Source of the DNA: Acinetobacter bereziniae | Lineage (GTDB): Bacteria > Pseudomonadota > Gammaproteobacteria > Pseudomonadales > Moraxellaceae | Assembly (NCBI GenBank): GCA_009912575.1 | Contig: WNDP01000014.1 | Span: 1 to 49,489, forward strand | Reading direction: 5' to 3' | Length of the DNA: 49,489 nt | Part shown: positions 8,346 through 40,490 of the stretch, piece by piece | How the letters are laid out: every line of letters starts with the position of its first letter | How positions within the stretch are numbered: the first letter of the stretch is position 1 | The notes under the pieces: model-generated | What the model was told of the DNA's origin: nothing | The model's database searches: none | The model's input: only the letters and a program-made list of their open reading frames with translations | Position numbers and translations under genes: made by a program

Positions 8346-9430
8346 TATTGTGTCACTCCTTGATTTGCTTCTAAAACATCTGTTGGTAAGCCTTTAAACG
8401 GAATGATTGGCTCAGGGGTAAATCCACCGATTGGCATAACAATTAGATCGCAACGTGTTCCCATTTCATCTATTCGATAAGTCACTTCACCAATCAACCA
8501 ATTTTGCATGACGATTTTTAGACTTGGAATATTGATTTGGACTTGGGTATTTGGTTTATACAGTATGCCCTCAACATTTCGCCAGTTAGATACCGTAAGA
8601 TTCAATACATTGCTTCTTGCATATCGTCTATTTTGCTCCCACATAGCACGTTTTTCTGCAACCTTAAACCCTGCATCTCCATCCTCTGGAATAATATATA
8701 AAGGTCGATAACGATTAATGAATTTGTCTTTAACAATATAGTAACCAATGTTTTGATCTTCAATTTGATCTGCATTTAATGCAGCACTCGGAATAACCAC
8801 AATATAGTCTGAATAAAGCTGATCTCGTCCTTTTGTAAATGAGGCTGTTTCTATATTTTTACCTTGTACCAAAGATCCAACAGGTCCATCATTTCGTTCG
8901 CGACTGAGGATTAAATTTCCGTTTTCATCTTCATAGTAAAGCACCTGAGCGACACGACACACACGGTCTAATACTGCTGCAGGTGTTTCTCCAATATTGA
9001 TATTTTGAACAGAAATAACATCTGTTTTGACTTCTGAGGAAACTTTGATCCCATAATCTTCACACAATGACTCAGCTATTTTTAGAGCATCCATATTTTG
9101 AAATTGCATACCTTTCCAAACAGCCGAGCAATCCACCAAGTCTGAACACTTACCACGTCCCGTGACTTGATAAATATGTTGATTTGCTCTCACGGTATTG
9201 GTAAAGCGGTCAATATATCCAGTAACCACAACATCTTCACCAATGTAAACAGTACATTTATCTCCTGGTATGACTTCAACATAAGCAAGATCAGGAACTT
9301 TTTCAGACATTTGCAAACTAAAACTATTCGGAATACGTTCAATCCCACATGTAATACTGACTTGTGTCCAACCTTCTATAGCAAATTGGTTTGTACCTGT
9401 ATCTATAATCAGTTTCACTTTATTATTCAT
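8345..9430 (-). CDS. Baseplate hub protein (Mu gp44 / P2 gpD family)
   Basis: A 361-residue hub (late control D/GPD family). N-terminal strands (VKLIIDTGTNQFAIEGWTQV) are followed by the DKCTVYIGEDVVVTGYIDRF barrel, the central LKIAESLCEDYGIKVSS repeat (usual 'a-x-ia-x-LC-pfGI'), and the C-terminal MWEQNRRYARSNVLNLTVSN region. The protein trimerises to connect the tail tube to the spike; neighbours on both sides (DNA-circularisation protein and gp45) are in Mu order. ATG 9430 overlaps the preceding stop by 4 bases. Confidence 0.87.
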   Translation of the reverse strand: MNNKVKLIIDTGTNQFAIEGWTQVSITCGIERIPNSFSLQMSEKVPDLAYVEVIPGDKCTVYIGEDVVVTGYIDRFTNTVRANQHIYQVTGRGKCSDLVDCSAVWKGMQFQNMDALKIAESLCEDYGIKVSSEVKTDVISVQNINIGETPAAVLDRVCRVAQVLYYEDENGNLILSRERNDGPVGSLVQGKNIETASFTKGRDQLYSDYIVVIPSAALNADQIEDQNIGYYIVKDKFINRYRPLYIIPEDGDAGFKVAEKRAMWEQNRRYARSNVLNLTVSNWRNVEGILYKPNTQVQINIPSLKIVMQNWLIGEVTYRIDEMGTRCDLIVMPIGGFTPEPIIPFKGLPTDVLEANQGVTQ

Positions 9431-10767
9431 GATAAAAGCGCCTTAAACTGTATTGGCATAAACGCAGGATGAATTGGGTTCACTGATTTCACCAACTCAC
9501 CTTCACGTTTACTGTCTTGATAAAGTTGTTGTGCCCAAACCAAAGAAGGCAAACTGGTAGCAGCATCAATTTGCTTAATTTTAGCTAAATCACCACCTCT
9601 TAAAGTTAAGTCTTGAGACACTGAGGTTTTAAGCTTTTGAAGGCTGTTATAAGTTTTGTCCAAGCCTTGATCACCTGCCAGTCTCATTTCATCATCAAGT
9701 AATTTGCAGACAATATCACGGGTATTTCGAGCATCATCATAGGAAAGATATTGCCGATCCGCTGTTGATTGAGCTACACAAATCACTGCAATACGGTGGA
9801 TAAGATCATTGATGAGATTGAAGCCTTTGGCATCATCTGTACCCTCTGGCATGTTTGGCATATTGATTAAAGGCAACATGGCATTCATTGCTTGCAAAGG
9901 ATCAGGATTCGCCTCAAAAACTGCAACAACAGTATCAGCAATACCATTTACAACTTTTTCAATGTTCATATCTTCTAGATCAGTTGCAAGCTTTTGTACA
10001 TTGTTGAGCACATTCACCCGACTCGCTGAACCTAACCCAATTAATTGAGATACTGTTTTTTGAGTTTTTTTGTCTCTCGGTACTGCTGAACCAATGTAAC
10101 GCCCAATCTCACCCGGTAAACTTGTAATCATGGTGAATAGACTTGTTGCTGTAAATATGACTTGCCTCACTTGAGTGGTGAAACGATTTACTTTTGTTAA
10201 TATCCCATTTCTATAGCGACGCACCTCACCTTTGAGCTTAAATAAGGTGTCTATAATTGTGGCTTTTTTAGCTGCTTTTACATTATCATCTACATCTTTT
10301 TTTGGTGTAGCCAAAATCATTGATGTGGGATTTACAGCATTTTCAATGAATGTAAAGCGAAGTGATGCCGTGCGTCCCTGCAAGTCTTGATCAATTTCAA
10401 GGTTTTGCAGAGCCATTTTTGACCTTACGCCAAGTGTGGGGTGGCAAAGTATTCCATCCTCCCACTGTAGAGCAATTTTTTCAAAAGCTTCGATTTGTTC
10501 TTTCAATGAACCTTTACCACCATAAGCCCCTCCACCCTCAACAATAAAGCCCATAATGTGAAAGTTTTTACCCTTAGCACCTAAATCCTCAACCCAAACT
10601 CCGTCTGTGTACGGGTATTCATGGATTGCTAATTTTCTTCCCAGTGACATAGATGCCGAAGTTATTCCAAATGGAATATTACGCCATGATGCAGGTTGTA
10701 AACTTTGAAAAAATGGGAGGTTGATATTGTTTGTTTTTTTGGTTTTATCAATACTGTTGAAGTCCAT
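9427..10767 (-). CDS. DNA circularisation protein (Mu gp43/N)
   Basis: A 446-residue protein from ATG 10767, which has GGAGAAAAT directly before it; an upstream in-frame start would run through a terminator hairpin. The N-terminus PASWRNIPFGITSASMSLGR, then HEYPYTDGVWVEDLGAKG and FHIMGFIVEGG, matches the DNA_circ N-terminal domain of the Mu N family. In Mu-like virions this is a tail/hub-associated protein, named for its role in circularising injected DNA. It is separated from the tape-measure gene by an 800-base insert holding a gene on the other strand. Confidence 0.85.
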   Translation of the reverse strand: MDFNSIDKTKKTNNINLPFFQSLQPASWRNIPFGITSASMSLGRKLAIHEYPYTDGVWVEDLGAKGKNFHIMGFIVEGGGAYGGKGSLKEQIEAFEKIALQWEDGILCHPTLGVRSKMALQNLEIDQDLQGRTASLRFTFIENAVNPTSMILATPKKDVDDNVKAAKKATIIDTLFKLKGEVRRYRNGILTKVNRFTTQVRQVIFTATSLFTMITSLPGEIGRYIGSAVPRDKKTQKTVSQLIGLGSASRVNVLNNVQKLATDLEDMNIEKVVNGIADTVVAVFEANPDPLQAMNAMLPLINMPNMPEGTDDAKGFNLINDLIHRIAVICVAQSTADRQYLSYDDARNTRDIVCKLLDDEMRLAGDQGLDKTYNSLQKLKTSVSQDLTLRGGDLAKIKQIDAATSLPSLVWAQQLYQDSKREGELVKSVNPIHPAFMPIQFKALLS

Positions 10768-10782
10768 ATTTTCTCCAAATGT

Positions 10783-10803
10783 AAAAACCCACCGTAGTGG
10801 GTT
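10783..10803 (-). terminator. Leftward intrinsic terminator before DNA-circularisation gene
   Basis: Read leftward: AACCCAC (10803-10797), loop TACG, GTGGGTT (10792-10786), then TTTA. The T run leads within 20 bases to the GGAGAAAAT site of the next gene. It would stop a transcript arriving from the tape-measure gene antisense to the moron. Confidence 0.75.
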
Positions 10804-10850
10804 AGGTTTAAGAGGGATATTTAACGCCTTTGTGAAATGAACAACCCCTA

Positions 10851-10879
10851 TTGTTAATTCAAAGTATCTCAAATATAGT
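10851..10879 (+). promoter_or_regulatory. Promoter of the Ivy-like moron gene
   Basis: TTGTTA at 10851-10856 and TATAGT at 10874-10879 with a 17-base spacer, 50 bases upstream of the rightward gene at 10930. The gene is opposite to all its neighbours, so it needs its own promoter; this one is good enough for constitutive expression in a lysogen. Confidence 0.6.
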
Positions 10880-10929
10880 TCATAATATAACCAAAACTTA
10901 ATAATTGAGATTTTAAAAAAGGGCTTGGC

Positions 10930-11535
10930 ATGAAATATTTATGTGTATTATTAATAGTTATGACATCAAGTGCGATTGCAGCTAAATCTAAAAATGATAT
11001 GTTTTTTTTGGTTGGTAAACACCCTTATACAGCCATTCAAAACAAGCTAGCTTTACAAGCTATTCCAACTAACATTCCAAAAAAAGATTTCCAAAAGATT
11101 AAGGATAGACTTTCTGTAGGTGGAAAAGTTACAACAGATGGTCAATATGTCATATTAGAAGGTTGTAAAGCACACCTATGTGATACTGATGCTGCTATTG
11201 TGGTTTTTGACAACATAAATAAGCATTCTTATGCTGTATACATAGAAAACCTTAATGGAGCATTGGGCGCTCCAAATGTTCAAATATATCAAAATACAAG
11301 ATCAGACCTAAATACAATACCGCCAATTTATCAATTTTTGACTGATTATAAAATTTCCCTGACTACGGTTTTTGAAAATTCTCAAGGTTCTGTAAAACCA
11401 ATATCACGCAATCCAGGTTACAGGATAACATCACAAAAGACAGTTATTATTGATTCAAGTAAAAGAGATGATGGGGTGGGAGTCTCATCACCTCGAAATA
11501 CGAACAATAGAAATAACACTATATCTAATGAATAG
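10930..11535 (+). CDS. Secreted Ivy-like lysozyme inhibitor (moron)
   Basis: A 201-residue protein with a clear Sec signal (MKYLCVLLIVMTSSAIA, cleavage near residue 17-18). Residues 65-110 read DGQYVILEGCKAHLC then DAAIVVFD and HSYAVYIEN. This matches the core of Ivy-family inhibitors of vertebrate lysozyme, whose active loop is CKPHDC followed by a strand pair; here the loop is CKAHLC with both Cys and the His kept but Pro and Asp replaced. A 40-residue Ser/Asn-rich tail is extra. AGGG lies 8 bases before ATG 10930. It is inserted between tape measure and gene 43 in opposite orientation, with own promoter: the layout of a lysogenic-conversion gene. Inhibition of lysozyme is inferred from the motif; ligand could differ. 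Confidence 0.6.
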   Translation: MKYLCVLLIVMTSSAIAAKSKNDMFFLVGKHPYTAIQNKLALQAIPTNIPKKDFQKIKDRLSVGGKVTTDGQYVILEGCKAHLCDTDAAIVVFDNINKHSYAVYIENLNGALGAPNVQIYQNTRSDLNTIPPIYQFLTDYKISLTTVFENSQGSVKPISRNPGYRITSQKTVIIDSSKRDDGVGVSSPRNTNNRNNTISNE

Positions 11536-11556
11536 AAAAGAGCTAAATTTCTAAAT

Positions 11557-13479
11557 TTATTCCATAATACCTGGCGCATTATGTTTGATTTTAGCACCCT
11601 GAGGTGTTGTGACTTTAGTAGTTGTGCCTCCACCTGGGTGTACAGTTGTTTGTACATTTACATTTAATGGGATTGTAGGACTACCACCTGTACCAGGGCT
11701 AAACATTTTGTTTAAATATCCCTGAGTTTCTTTTGGTGCTCTGACTTGCCAATTATTTCCATATTTTTTAACAGATTTATCAACATTGCCCTCTCCCCAA
11801 TTATATGCTGCTGTAGCTTTCTGAGTATCTCCTTTATAGTATTTCAATAAATTTTGTAGCTTTTTAGAAGCAGCAATGGCAGAAATCTCAAAATTCATGG
11901 TATCTGCTTCAGTCATACCATATTCTTTTGCAGTTTTTGGCATAAATTGAAAATGACCTGTAGCACCTGCTGGAGAACGCATATTTTTACCTCTGCTTGA
12001 CTCCATCCACCAAACCCTATCTAGCATTCCTTTTGGTAAACCATGTTTCTTCTCTAGAGTATCAAATAGCAAACTCGACTTAATTAACTCTTTACCGCTG
12101 GGCTCTTTGAATTTCCCTATTGATGAATCGTACTTTTCCATATTCGCAACAGATTCTTTTGCACTAGGCAAACCAATGAATGCAAGACCTTTTGTGATCT
12201 TTTCACCCATCCAATCATCAATTTTTTGACCTGTTTCTGTTTTTAAGTACGTCTCTCTAATTTTTGTACCAATCTGCCATCCAGCAAAGCCTGCAAGAGT
12301 TAGAAGTGCGAGACTTCCTGCTAAACGCAATGCTCCCATTGCCCCTGTAGCAATTCCCAATTTGGCGATCATGCTACCCAAACTGCCAATAAATGCACCA
12401 ACACTTGCTACAAAGCCAACACCTATTAATACACCTAGACCTTTTAAAACATTACCCCAACCGCCAAGCTTTTCAACAGTTCTGTCAATCCATTTGACCA
12501 CTTTGACACAGCCCTCAATGAATCTAACAATCCCATCTAAAACTTTTTCAAAATCTATCTTGTCTAACCATTTTGCTAAACGTTCAGCTAACTCCGCAAT
12601 CTTGGTACTAATTCTCTCCCTATTTGCCACCATCCATTCAGTCCACTTTTGAATCAATGGCTGAAAAACTGGAATCAATTTGTCAGCAATTGCAGCACGC
12701 ATTCCGCCTGTTGCAATTTTCATATCATCCAACTTTCTGGTAAAGTCCTTGGCTCGCTTCTCCATTGCCGGTGTTATATCACCTTGAAGCCTTCGTACTT
12801 CACTCTGATATTGGCGCATTGCTTTACTTCCCTGCATCAAAACAGGTAATAGTTCTTCTACACCAAATGTTTGAGCAAGTTTTCGTGCCGCTGCTGGATC
12901 TCGCTTTTGAATGACTTTGATCTTATCGACTAATTTTAACAAGACAGCTTCAGTATCAATTACACCAGTACGAGTATGTTTAAGACCAATACCAAGCATT
13001 TGCAACATGCCAAAAACAGCTTGATTTCGCCCCCACTTGGCATCTTGTAAGGTGTCTGAAAACCCTCTTATTCCTTGGGTCATCTGTTCAGATGAAATGC
13101 CAAAAAGTGTCCCCATGTTCTGCCAACTCATGAGTTCATTCACACCAATATTCAAGATTTGTGAGGTTTTTTGTGTTGCTGTTCCGAGTCTCGCCCATCC
13201 CTCTGTCATCTGATACAGCCCTGCAATAGAGCCACCACCAAACAATGCAAGCAAAGGCGCACCAAGCTTTAAAACCAAACCAAGCAAAGCCCCTACTTTT
13301 GATGTAAGCCACCCCATACCTCGGGCTAATTTATTAACGCCTGAAACATCTCCCAAGCGTTTGATTGAGCTGCCTAAACGTGAGAAAGGTTGGGACATAC
13401 GCTCAACTGAATTATTAATCCTGTTAATCACTTCTGTTGCTCGATCAACAGCGGTAATTGTGTATTGAATCGGTCTCAT
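11557..13479 (-). CDS. Tape measure protein with C-terminal lytic transglycosylase domain
   Basis: A 640-residue tail tape measure. It starts MRPIQYTITAVDRATEVINRIN, has heptad-rich segments and hydrophobic stretches near residues 62-88 and 345-410 (likely inserted into the host membrane), and ends in a soluble-lytic-transglycosylase (SLT/goose-lysozyme-like) domain at roughly 465-600: LDRVWWMESSRGKNMRSPAG with catalytic Glu, GATGHFQFMPKTAKEYG and ATAAYNWGEGNV. Such domains open peptidoglycan during DNA entry. Its ATG overlaps the stop of the frameshifted chaperone (ATGA). The length predicts a tail of roughly 90-100 nm before processing. Confidence 0.88.
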   Translation of the reverse strand: MRPIQYTITAVDRATEVINRINNSVERMSQPFSRLGSSIKRLGDVSGVNKLARGMGWLTSKVGALLGLVLKLGAPLLALFGGGSIAGLYQMTEGWARLGTATQKTSQILNIGVNELMSWQNMGTLFGISSEQMTQGIRGFSDTLQDAKWGRNQAVFGMLQMLGIGLKHTRTGVIDTEAVLLKLVDKIKVIQKRDPAAARKLAQTFGVEELLPVLMQGSKAMRQYQSEVRRLQGDITPAMEKRAKDFTRKLDDMKIATGGMRAAIADKLIPVFQPLIQKWTEWMVANRERISTKIAELAERLAKWLDKIDFEKVLDGIVRFIEGCVKVVKWIDRTVEKLGGWGNVLKGLGVLIGVGFVASVGAFIGSLGSMIAKLGIATGAMGALRLAGSLALLTLAGFAGWQIGTKIRETYLKTETGQKIDDWMGEKITKGLAFIGLPSAKESVANMEKYDSSIGKFKEPSGKELIKSSLLFDTLEKKHGLPKGMLDRVWWMESSRGKNMRSPAGATGHFQFMPKTAKEYGMTEADTMNFEISAIAASKKLQNLLKYYKGDTQKATAAYNWGEGNVDKSVKKYGNNWQVRAPKETQGYLNKMFSPGTGGSPTIPLNVNVQTTVHPGGGTTTKVTTPQGAKIKHNAPGIME

Positions 13480-39626: not shown

Positions 39627-40184
39627 TTAAAACCCCAATATCTTATTCGAGATTTTATTTTTAACAGGCTCTGGATATTTTTCAACAACGGGTGGCGTTG
39701 TACCCGTATTACCATCTAAACCATTGTTAGGTGGTGTTTCTGTAGAGCCATTATTTGAACCGCCTGAACCATTCTCAGGTGGTGTTTCTGTAGAACCATT
39801 GTTTGAACCACCCGAACCATTCTCAGGTGGTGTTTCTGTAGAACCATTGTTTGAACCACCCGAACCATTCTCAGGTGGCGTTTCTGTAGAACCATTGTTT
39901 GAACCACCCGAACCATTCTCAGGTGGCGTTTCTGTAGAACCATTGTTTGAACCACCCGAACCATTATCTGGTGGTGTTTCTGTAGCGCCATTATTTGAAC
40001 CACCCGAACCATTATCTGGTGTTTCTGGTGTACCATCTCCAGGCAACTCATTTGTACCATCTCCTGGATTTTGTGGCAGATTTGATGGCTGGTCATTTAC
40101 AGAATGGCTATCGCCACCACCTCCACATGCAATCAACATTGCTGAAAGCGTACAAATTGTTAAATATTTAAACCTTAATTGCAT
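39627..40184 (-). CDS. Lipoprotein with 16-residue tandem repeats
   Basis: A 185-residue lipoprotein from ATG 40184 (GGGGGAGTTCTGTG upstream). Signal QLRFKYLTICTLSAMLIAC with lipobox LIAC, then GGGGDSHSVNDQPSNLPQNP linker and six copies of a NGSGGSNNGSTETPPE unit, ending EKYPEPVKNKISNKILGF. A low-complexity, Pro/Gly/Asn/Thr-rich surface lipoprotein without a folded domain. It could be host or the first gene outside the prophage; function unknown. Copy number likely to vary between strains. Confidence 0.72.
   Translation of the reverse strand: MQLRFKYLTICTLSAMLIACGGGGDSHSVNDQPSNLPQNPGDGTNELPGDGTPETPDNGSGGSNNGATETPPDNGSGGSNNGSTETPPENGSGGSNNGSTETPPENGSGGSNNGSTETPPENGSGGSNNGSTETPPENGSGGSNNGSTETPPNNGLDGNTGTTPPVVEKYPEPVKNKISNKILGF
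39730..40017. repeat. Six 48-bp tandem repeats in lipoprotein gene
   Basis: Six successive 48-base units (39730, 39778, 39826, 39874, 39922, 39970), each keeping frame (16 codons). The central three are identical or differ by one base, signs of recent expansion; the outer units carry more changes (GAGCCATTA, GCGCCATTA). Confidence 0.9.
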
Positions 40185-40490
40185 CACAGAACTCCCCCAA
40201 TATTTATAACGACTTATCTCTATCCTTGTTTTTTGAGACAAATTTGAAATTCTATTTAATTTCAATAACTTAAATATAACACATCAATTTAATTTTCATT
40301 ATTTATTTATAATTAACCGACGAAAAACCCATCACAGCATCAAAATATATGTGTGTTTGTCATTTAGAATAATGATTAATCTGAATAAAATATTGTTCAG
40401 TTTATAATTTTAGTCATTGTTATATTGGCCTTGCGACAAGCTTAAACAATGTTTACCTAAGCGAATTAATCTTTGAATTTTATTGACAAA

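Follow-up and report, generated by a model that had tools for sequence, protein, structure and literature searches.

The window, by which we mean the whole stretch of 49,489 nucleotides of contig WNDP01000014.1 of Acinetobacter bereziniae that was analysed, carries a prophage, and antisense to its tail operon lies a gene for a secreted-looking protein that resembles the lysozyme inhibitor Ivy. The gene occupies 10930-11535 on the forward strand (open reading frame (ORF) call, stop codon included) and its product has 201 residues. The N-terminus, MKYLCVLLIVMTSSAIAAKS, is signal-peptide-like by eye and by our own heuristic, from which export of the protein to the periplasm is predicted. The parts of the gene are as follows.

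10930..11535, forward strand: Ivy-like secreted protein (ORF, Pfam, profile comparison and structure model)
10930..10983, forward strand: putative signal peptide, residues 1-18 (cleavage site by eye; our own heuristic puts cleavage at 20)
11047..11385, forward strand: Ivy-fold core, model residues 22-134 (block-mean predicted local distance difference test (pLDDT) 59-80, final few residues lower)
11164..11181, forward strand: CKAHLC loop, residues 79-84 (sequence pattern and structure model, between two predicted beta strands)
11386..11532, forward strand: C-terminal tail of low confidence, probably disordered (pLDDT <50, model residues 135-183)

The predicted structure of the mature part of the protein has the Ivy fold, and the match to Ivy exceeds chance both in profile comparison with controls and in structure comparison, which was performed with VIA-align over the 1000 chains ranked highest by Foldseek. 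The C-x-P/A-H-x-C loop of Ivy is present at the place of the Ivy motif as CKAHLC (model residues 61-66), flanked by predicted strands at 55-61 and 70-76; in Ivy, according to PMC7677548, a loop between antiparallel strands enters the lysozyme active site. The original prediction had named an Ivy-type protein, and the checks suggested for it included two by computation. Structure prediction and comparison with Ivy supported it, giving an Ivy-like fold with the loop between predicted strands, and the profile search against the Ivy family (Pfam PF08816) returned a match of 17.4 bits, below the gathering cut-off of 21. Fold and loop agree, but since the gathering score was missed, 'Ivy-like' is apt and 'Ivy' too strong. 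Together these comparisons support a relationship to Ivy, as a probably divergent Ivy-like protein. It has in common with Ivy (PF08816; PDB 4ps6, 1uuz, 1gpq and 1xs0) the predicted fold, the C-x-[PAV]-H-x-C loop between strands and the signal-peptide-like N-terminus; unlike Ivy, it falls below the Pfam cut-off, ends in a low-confidence tail of ~50 residues and bears a GKHPY-type N-terminal motif that is common to proteins of Caballeronia and Trinickia.

A pattern search found the loop as CKAHEC, CKAHQC, CKAHAC, CMAHAC and CRPHMC in relatives, as CKPHDC, CKPHNC, CQPHNC, CEAHNC and CEVHNC in Ivy proteins, and as CKPHSC in the Ivy of Escherichia phage PHB10. The two Cys residues and the His are invariant in the proteins detectable by this search, and they are retained in all seven further loop-bearing relatives (L002, L003, L035, L036 and L043-L045), including L035 and L036, which have no Pfam Ivy match at E <= 1. 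The proteins with CEAHNC or CEVHNC loops (L037-L039) are Ivy proteins: the L038 locus scores 159 bits with the Pfam Ivy model, and a search with a profile containing L037 and L039 finds Ivy structures at 2.5e-28. The change from Pro to Ala had been taken as a sign of a shifted target; this argument is weakened, because the Pro/Ala position already varies within Ivy.

No relative of the protein was detected by tblastn in phages, in viral contigs or in the other 175 genomes from this genus, so that it is found in one genome of 176, its own; the DNA of the region likewise had no match in phages. When the Pfam Ivy model was run over 115 genomes of the order, one genome exceeded the cut-off, and the genome of the window was not listed at E <= 0.01. 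The nearest relatives are domains inside large proteins of Caballeronia and Trinickia (a 'Burkholderia' record is also named), in which DUF4236 is combined with an Ivy-like stretch (L002, 19.5 bits; L003, 19.4 bits; L043, 15.3 bits). These DUF4236 proteins are closest in sequence and have in common with the window protein the GK-PY motif and the EGCKAH-C loop; they differ in being multidomain and ~570 residues long, and they come from plasmid as well as genome records. An LprI-like C-terminus is weakly detected in L002 (11.4 bits) and L003 (14.9 bits; cut-off 22), in a scan that covered L002, L003 and L043. L002, L003:3990-5708 and L043-L045 are all DUF4236 proteins, and in L002 and L003 two murein-enzyme inhibitor domains are possibly joined in one protein. 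A paralogue in the window's own genome, C292 (G000:C292:41379-41618; L046:6170-6706), has the domain without the Cys-His loop, and its family is present in 6 of the 176 genomes of the genus, one of which has two copies. Matches in G264 and G546 were rejected as probably due to chance (internal stops; unrelated frame).

Phage-borne Ivy is already present in sequence data, with PHB10 as a clear case by its score: its gene (QBJ00744.1; L152:4920-5333), annotated as hypothetical, reaches 71.3 bits with the Pfam model. Likewise carried by a phage, it differs from the window gene in being a clear PF08816 member that sits between the endolysin region and terminase, outside any tail slot. It falls in phrog_13619 ('unknown function'), which could take the name Ivy. 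Ivy relatives occur in seven viral contigs (L145-L151); gene context was examined in L146 and L149, and in at least one, L149, the gene adjoins what look like host genes. Two different Ivy genes lie ~2.5 kb apart in one viral contig (L146:6004-6450 and 9009-9476), the second with CNPDDC at the place of the loop and no histidine. A tblastn search of phages with a second Ivy (L039) gave no match. In PMC10977856 the ivy gene is located on a plasmid. In a literature search made largely without subscription literature, no paper was found on a lysozyme inhibitor as phage cargo in this genus or in a tail operon. What is new here, as judged from the sequences, would be the divergent Ivy-like subfamily, its slot in the tail operon and its exchange there with other secreted proteins.

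This slot is the interval between two leftward genes.

11557..13479, reverse strand: tape-measure protein (TMP) with an SLT lytic-transglycosylase domain (PHROG tape measure 4e-41, SLT 1.2e-16)
9427..10767, reverse strand: DNA-circularisation / baseplate hub protein, DNA_circ_N (start at 10767 probable, by homology; mechanical ORF to 10872)

The ORF, the signal-like N-terminus and the neighbours are thus all as first described, a secreted protein on the opposite strand between the tape-measure and circularisation genes. The Ivy-like gene is convergent with the TMP gene, the ends of the two being separated by 21 bp, and its 5' end faces the circularisation gene. Its G+C content is 32.3% against 39.0% for the prophage, an atypical composition of the kind that marks a moron; 4 of 381 sliding windows of 603 bp, some of which may overlap the gene itself, had a G+C content at or below that of the gene. 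The claim of moron status is supported, in that the gene is absent or replaced at the site in relatives.

The contents of the slot were compared within a near clade consisting of the window and six relatives, whose circularisation proteins are 63-72% identical to that of the window. G133 (L085:4902-5711) carries a 269-residue signal-peptide protein, antisense as in the window, with an LprI-like C-terminal stretch; it scores 19.2 bits with Pfam LprI (PF07007; cut-off 22), matches phrog_4675 at 2.6e-9 and reaches 19.0 bits with our own LprI profile, which gives the C292 paralogue 10.4 bits and no control ORF more than 7.1. It had no match in viral contigs. L094 has a lipoprotein and a 169-residue protein that matches residues 1-139 of the G133 protein at 60% identity and stops before the LprI-like part. 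The slot proteins of L091 and L092 are mutually 39% identical and both belong to phrog_11546. L093 carries a different signal-peptide protein, LprI-like by eye alone (5.8 bits with our own profile, controls <= 7.1; 24.0 in hhalign, a shuffle 24.9; no Pfam match), and G030 has no secreted gene, just a 49-residue membrane-like peptide.

By the signal-peptide heuristic, the cargo looks secreted in six of these seven prophages; in the control count of 0/55, at least one probable lipoprotein went undetected owing to a wrong start (39627-40265), which puts the real background above zero. The starts of the secreted genes of L091, L093 and L094 were shifted to internal ATGs, and two slot ORFs of at least 100 residues were left out as spurious ahead of the seven-of-seven count, namely a 116-residue antisense ORF in L094 and a 120-residue ORF in G030 that reaches into the circularisation gene. 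Similar slot ORFs of 49-50 residues occur in L094 (3168-3317), directly before the secreted gene, and in L091 (3584-3736), and may be a remnant or leader. Altogether, 25 loci with a circularisation protein were examined, three of them being the window, G133 and G030 and the other 22 more distant. Among these 22, the gap between the two genes is 37-79 bp in 14, and extra DNA or another ORF is present in eight. Two distant prophages (L078:1056-1340 and, in reverse-complement numbering, L081:1051-1335) have a 95-residue antisense slot ORF that shows no evident signal peptide. Of 17 annotated phages that have a matching protein, four were examined, and their gaps are 36, 33, 4 and -4 bp. With the circularisation protein as single query, no match was obtained in viral contigs. 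Since the interval is empty or differently filled in relatives, the site takes cargo.

The N-terminal halves of the TMPs are well conserved in the near clade, and the transglycosylase region falls by eye into two types, with five members in one and G133 and L091 in the other. For the six TMPs scanned, Pfam SLT scores were 60.7 bits for the window, 57.8 for L092, 63.0 for L093, 31.6 for L094 and 57.3 for G030, against 18.9 for G133, which falls short of the 21.3-bit cut-off. All seven TMPs retain Glu493-Ser494, Gly505-Ala506, Gly508, Met513-Pro514 and Tyr559 (window numbering), which we take to be hallmarks of SLT transglycosylases. Among distant TMPs, that of phiNP has SLT, those of phiAP1 and phiKM1 have a tail-lysozyme domain, and that of BZS1 has none at E <= 0.1. 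A link between slot content and TMP enzyme is suggestive only.

Two further features lie 5' of the Ivy-like gene.

10851..10886, forward strand: two overlapping promoter-like matches (9/12 each; scan, not above chance)
10803-10786, reverse strand: hairpin with T run, before the circularisation gene (scan, not above chance)

Both had been read as signals of an independent unit, a reading that the counts do not support. Promoter-like sites in 10000-12500 number 5 against 8.7 +/- 3.1 expected from shuffled sequence, and terminator-like hairpins 2 against 1.6 +/- 1.4. The hairpin exists, but it is oriented along the operon, just before the circularisation gene, and is therefore not the terminator of the Ivy-like gene; the terminator scan of 10000-12500 listed none 3' of that gene. 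Ahead of the circularisation gene, hairpins with stems of 7-13 bp occur in the window as well as in G133, L091 and L092; the hairpin scan found none before it in G030, nor within 260 nt in L093 and L094. Elsewhere in the window, 1272-1781 looks like a GH24 endolysin, presumably of the signal-anchor type, that could itself be a target of the Ivy-like protein, and 39627-40265, just past an integrase-like gene, encodes a repeat-rich (ETPP..NGSGGSNNGST) likely lipoprotein.

An Ivy-fold, exported prophage protein beside a tail transglycosylase is best read as an inhibitor of murein enzymes, most likely for exclusion of related phages, because Ivy proteins act against c-type lysozymes and also, though weakly in E. 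coli, against lytic transglycosylases (PMC2267010, PMC10139938 and PMC3660660), and because the T4 protein Spackle, whose fold is unrelated, blocks the tail lysozyme that incoming T4 brings (PMC7677548). The lysozyme resistance or shielding from muramidases that was first suggested is compatible with these results. We tentatively favour, at somewhat short of an even chance, the proposal that the gene is a moron whose Ivy-fold product acts in the periplasm to inhibit enzymes cleaving the glycan strands of murein, with the TMP transglycosylases of related incoming phages as its main target. Like its counterpart in Ivy, the CKAHLC loop would insert into the active-site cleft of its target enzyme, a lysozyme or lytic transglycosylase; less certainly, the main target would be the lytic-transglycosylase domain in the TMPs of related incoming phages, and the lysogen would resist superinfection at the murein step, as Spackle acts on the tail lysozyme gp5. 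Given its antisense position, the gene could be on in the lysogen and silenced during expression of the late operon, so that the lysis enzymes of the phage itself would be left uninhibited. The likeness to Spackle (gp61.3) lies in the proposed role alone, that of a periplasmic phage protein blocking a murein-cutting tail enzyme; Spackle differs in being a helical bundle with another mode of inhibition, made right after infection, and the comparison implies no homology.

Several results weigh against this proposal. Besides the Pfam score below the cut-off, the structure model is of modest confidence (mean pLDDT 56, predicted template modelling score 0.54), the NCBIfam search gave no match, and phmmer against the PDB had no Ivy among its matches. 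The A4 profile reaches Ivy chains at E 1.2-1.4 only, amid other weak matches, and in 229 further genomes searched with A4 the window's own genome was the sole match; L007, which is without the loop histidine, outscores the window protein with the Ivy model (19.2 bits). Ivy acts only weakly on the E. coli enzymes MltA and MltB, and no part in resistance to lysozyme was seen for ScwA, an LprI-domain protein (PMC7933661). Prophages with a common slot protein differ in TMP enzyme type, L091 from L092 and G133 from L094 (60% over 139 residues), and the slot is empty in phages with an SLT (phiNP) or tail-lysozyme TMP (phiAP1, phiKM1) and also in BZS1. LprI matches are common, with seven in the window's own genome and matches in 18/19 sampled genomes of the genus and 23/29 overall, and the LprI assignment of the G133 slot protein is soft, because in hhalign the C292 paralogue scores close to it (32.5, over the signal-peptide region, vs 33.9).

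The main rival is the classical Ivy role, in which the prophage would protect its lysogen from animal c-type lysozyme crossing a damaged outer membrane. The fold and loop of the window protein fit it, c-type lysozymes are bound and inhibited by Ivy (PMC2267010), and the tie between Ivy and tails is not general, because the Ivy genes of PHB10 and L146 lie outside tail operons. Against this, the sequence-level Ivy match is confined to a short core, and the protein is rare in the genus, with relatives in Caballeronia, the 'Burkholderia' record and Trinickia; these points are not decisive, and we consider this role rather unlikely. We consider it unlikely too that the protein keeps the Ivy fold in the envelope but has lost or changed its function, in a slot for assorted envelope cargo. 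No murein link was detected for other slot genes (L091, L092 and the L094 lipoprotein), slot type and TMP enzyme type do not co-vary, and C292 lacks the Cys-His loop; the retention of the loop cysteines and histidine in the window protein and its seven loop-bearing relatives speaks against such a loss. It is very unlikely that the protein keeps the host's lytic transglycosylases or autolysins in check so as to stabilise the lysogen or tune its lysis. Inhibition of MltB or MltA in vitro by Ivy family members and altered MltD levels due to an LprI-domain protein have been reported, but E. coli Ivy is described as acting weakly and partially on its own transglycosylases, and the antisense position gives no hint of a role in timing lysis.

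A broader form of the exclusion proposal, which we regard as doubtful, is that the interval is a dedicated, swappable 'murein-guard' locus at which related temperate phages trade inhibitors that are secreted (Ivy-like, LprI-like and of unnamed folds) beside a swappable TMP transglycosylase domain, so that each lysogen would exclude phages at the wall-cutting step in an effector-immunity-like manner. If the target of the Ivy-like protein is the tail enzyme, superinfection exclusion at the murein step would have a second protein solution in the Ivy fold, unrelated to the helical bundle of Spackle. The protein would then have been recruited from a family whose name refers to inhibition of animal lysozyme, and such a role would offer a reason why bacteria without contact with vertebrates have Ivy-type proteins.
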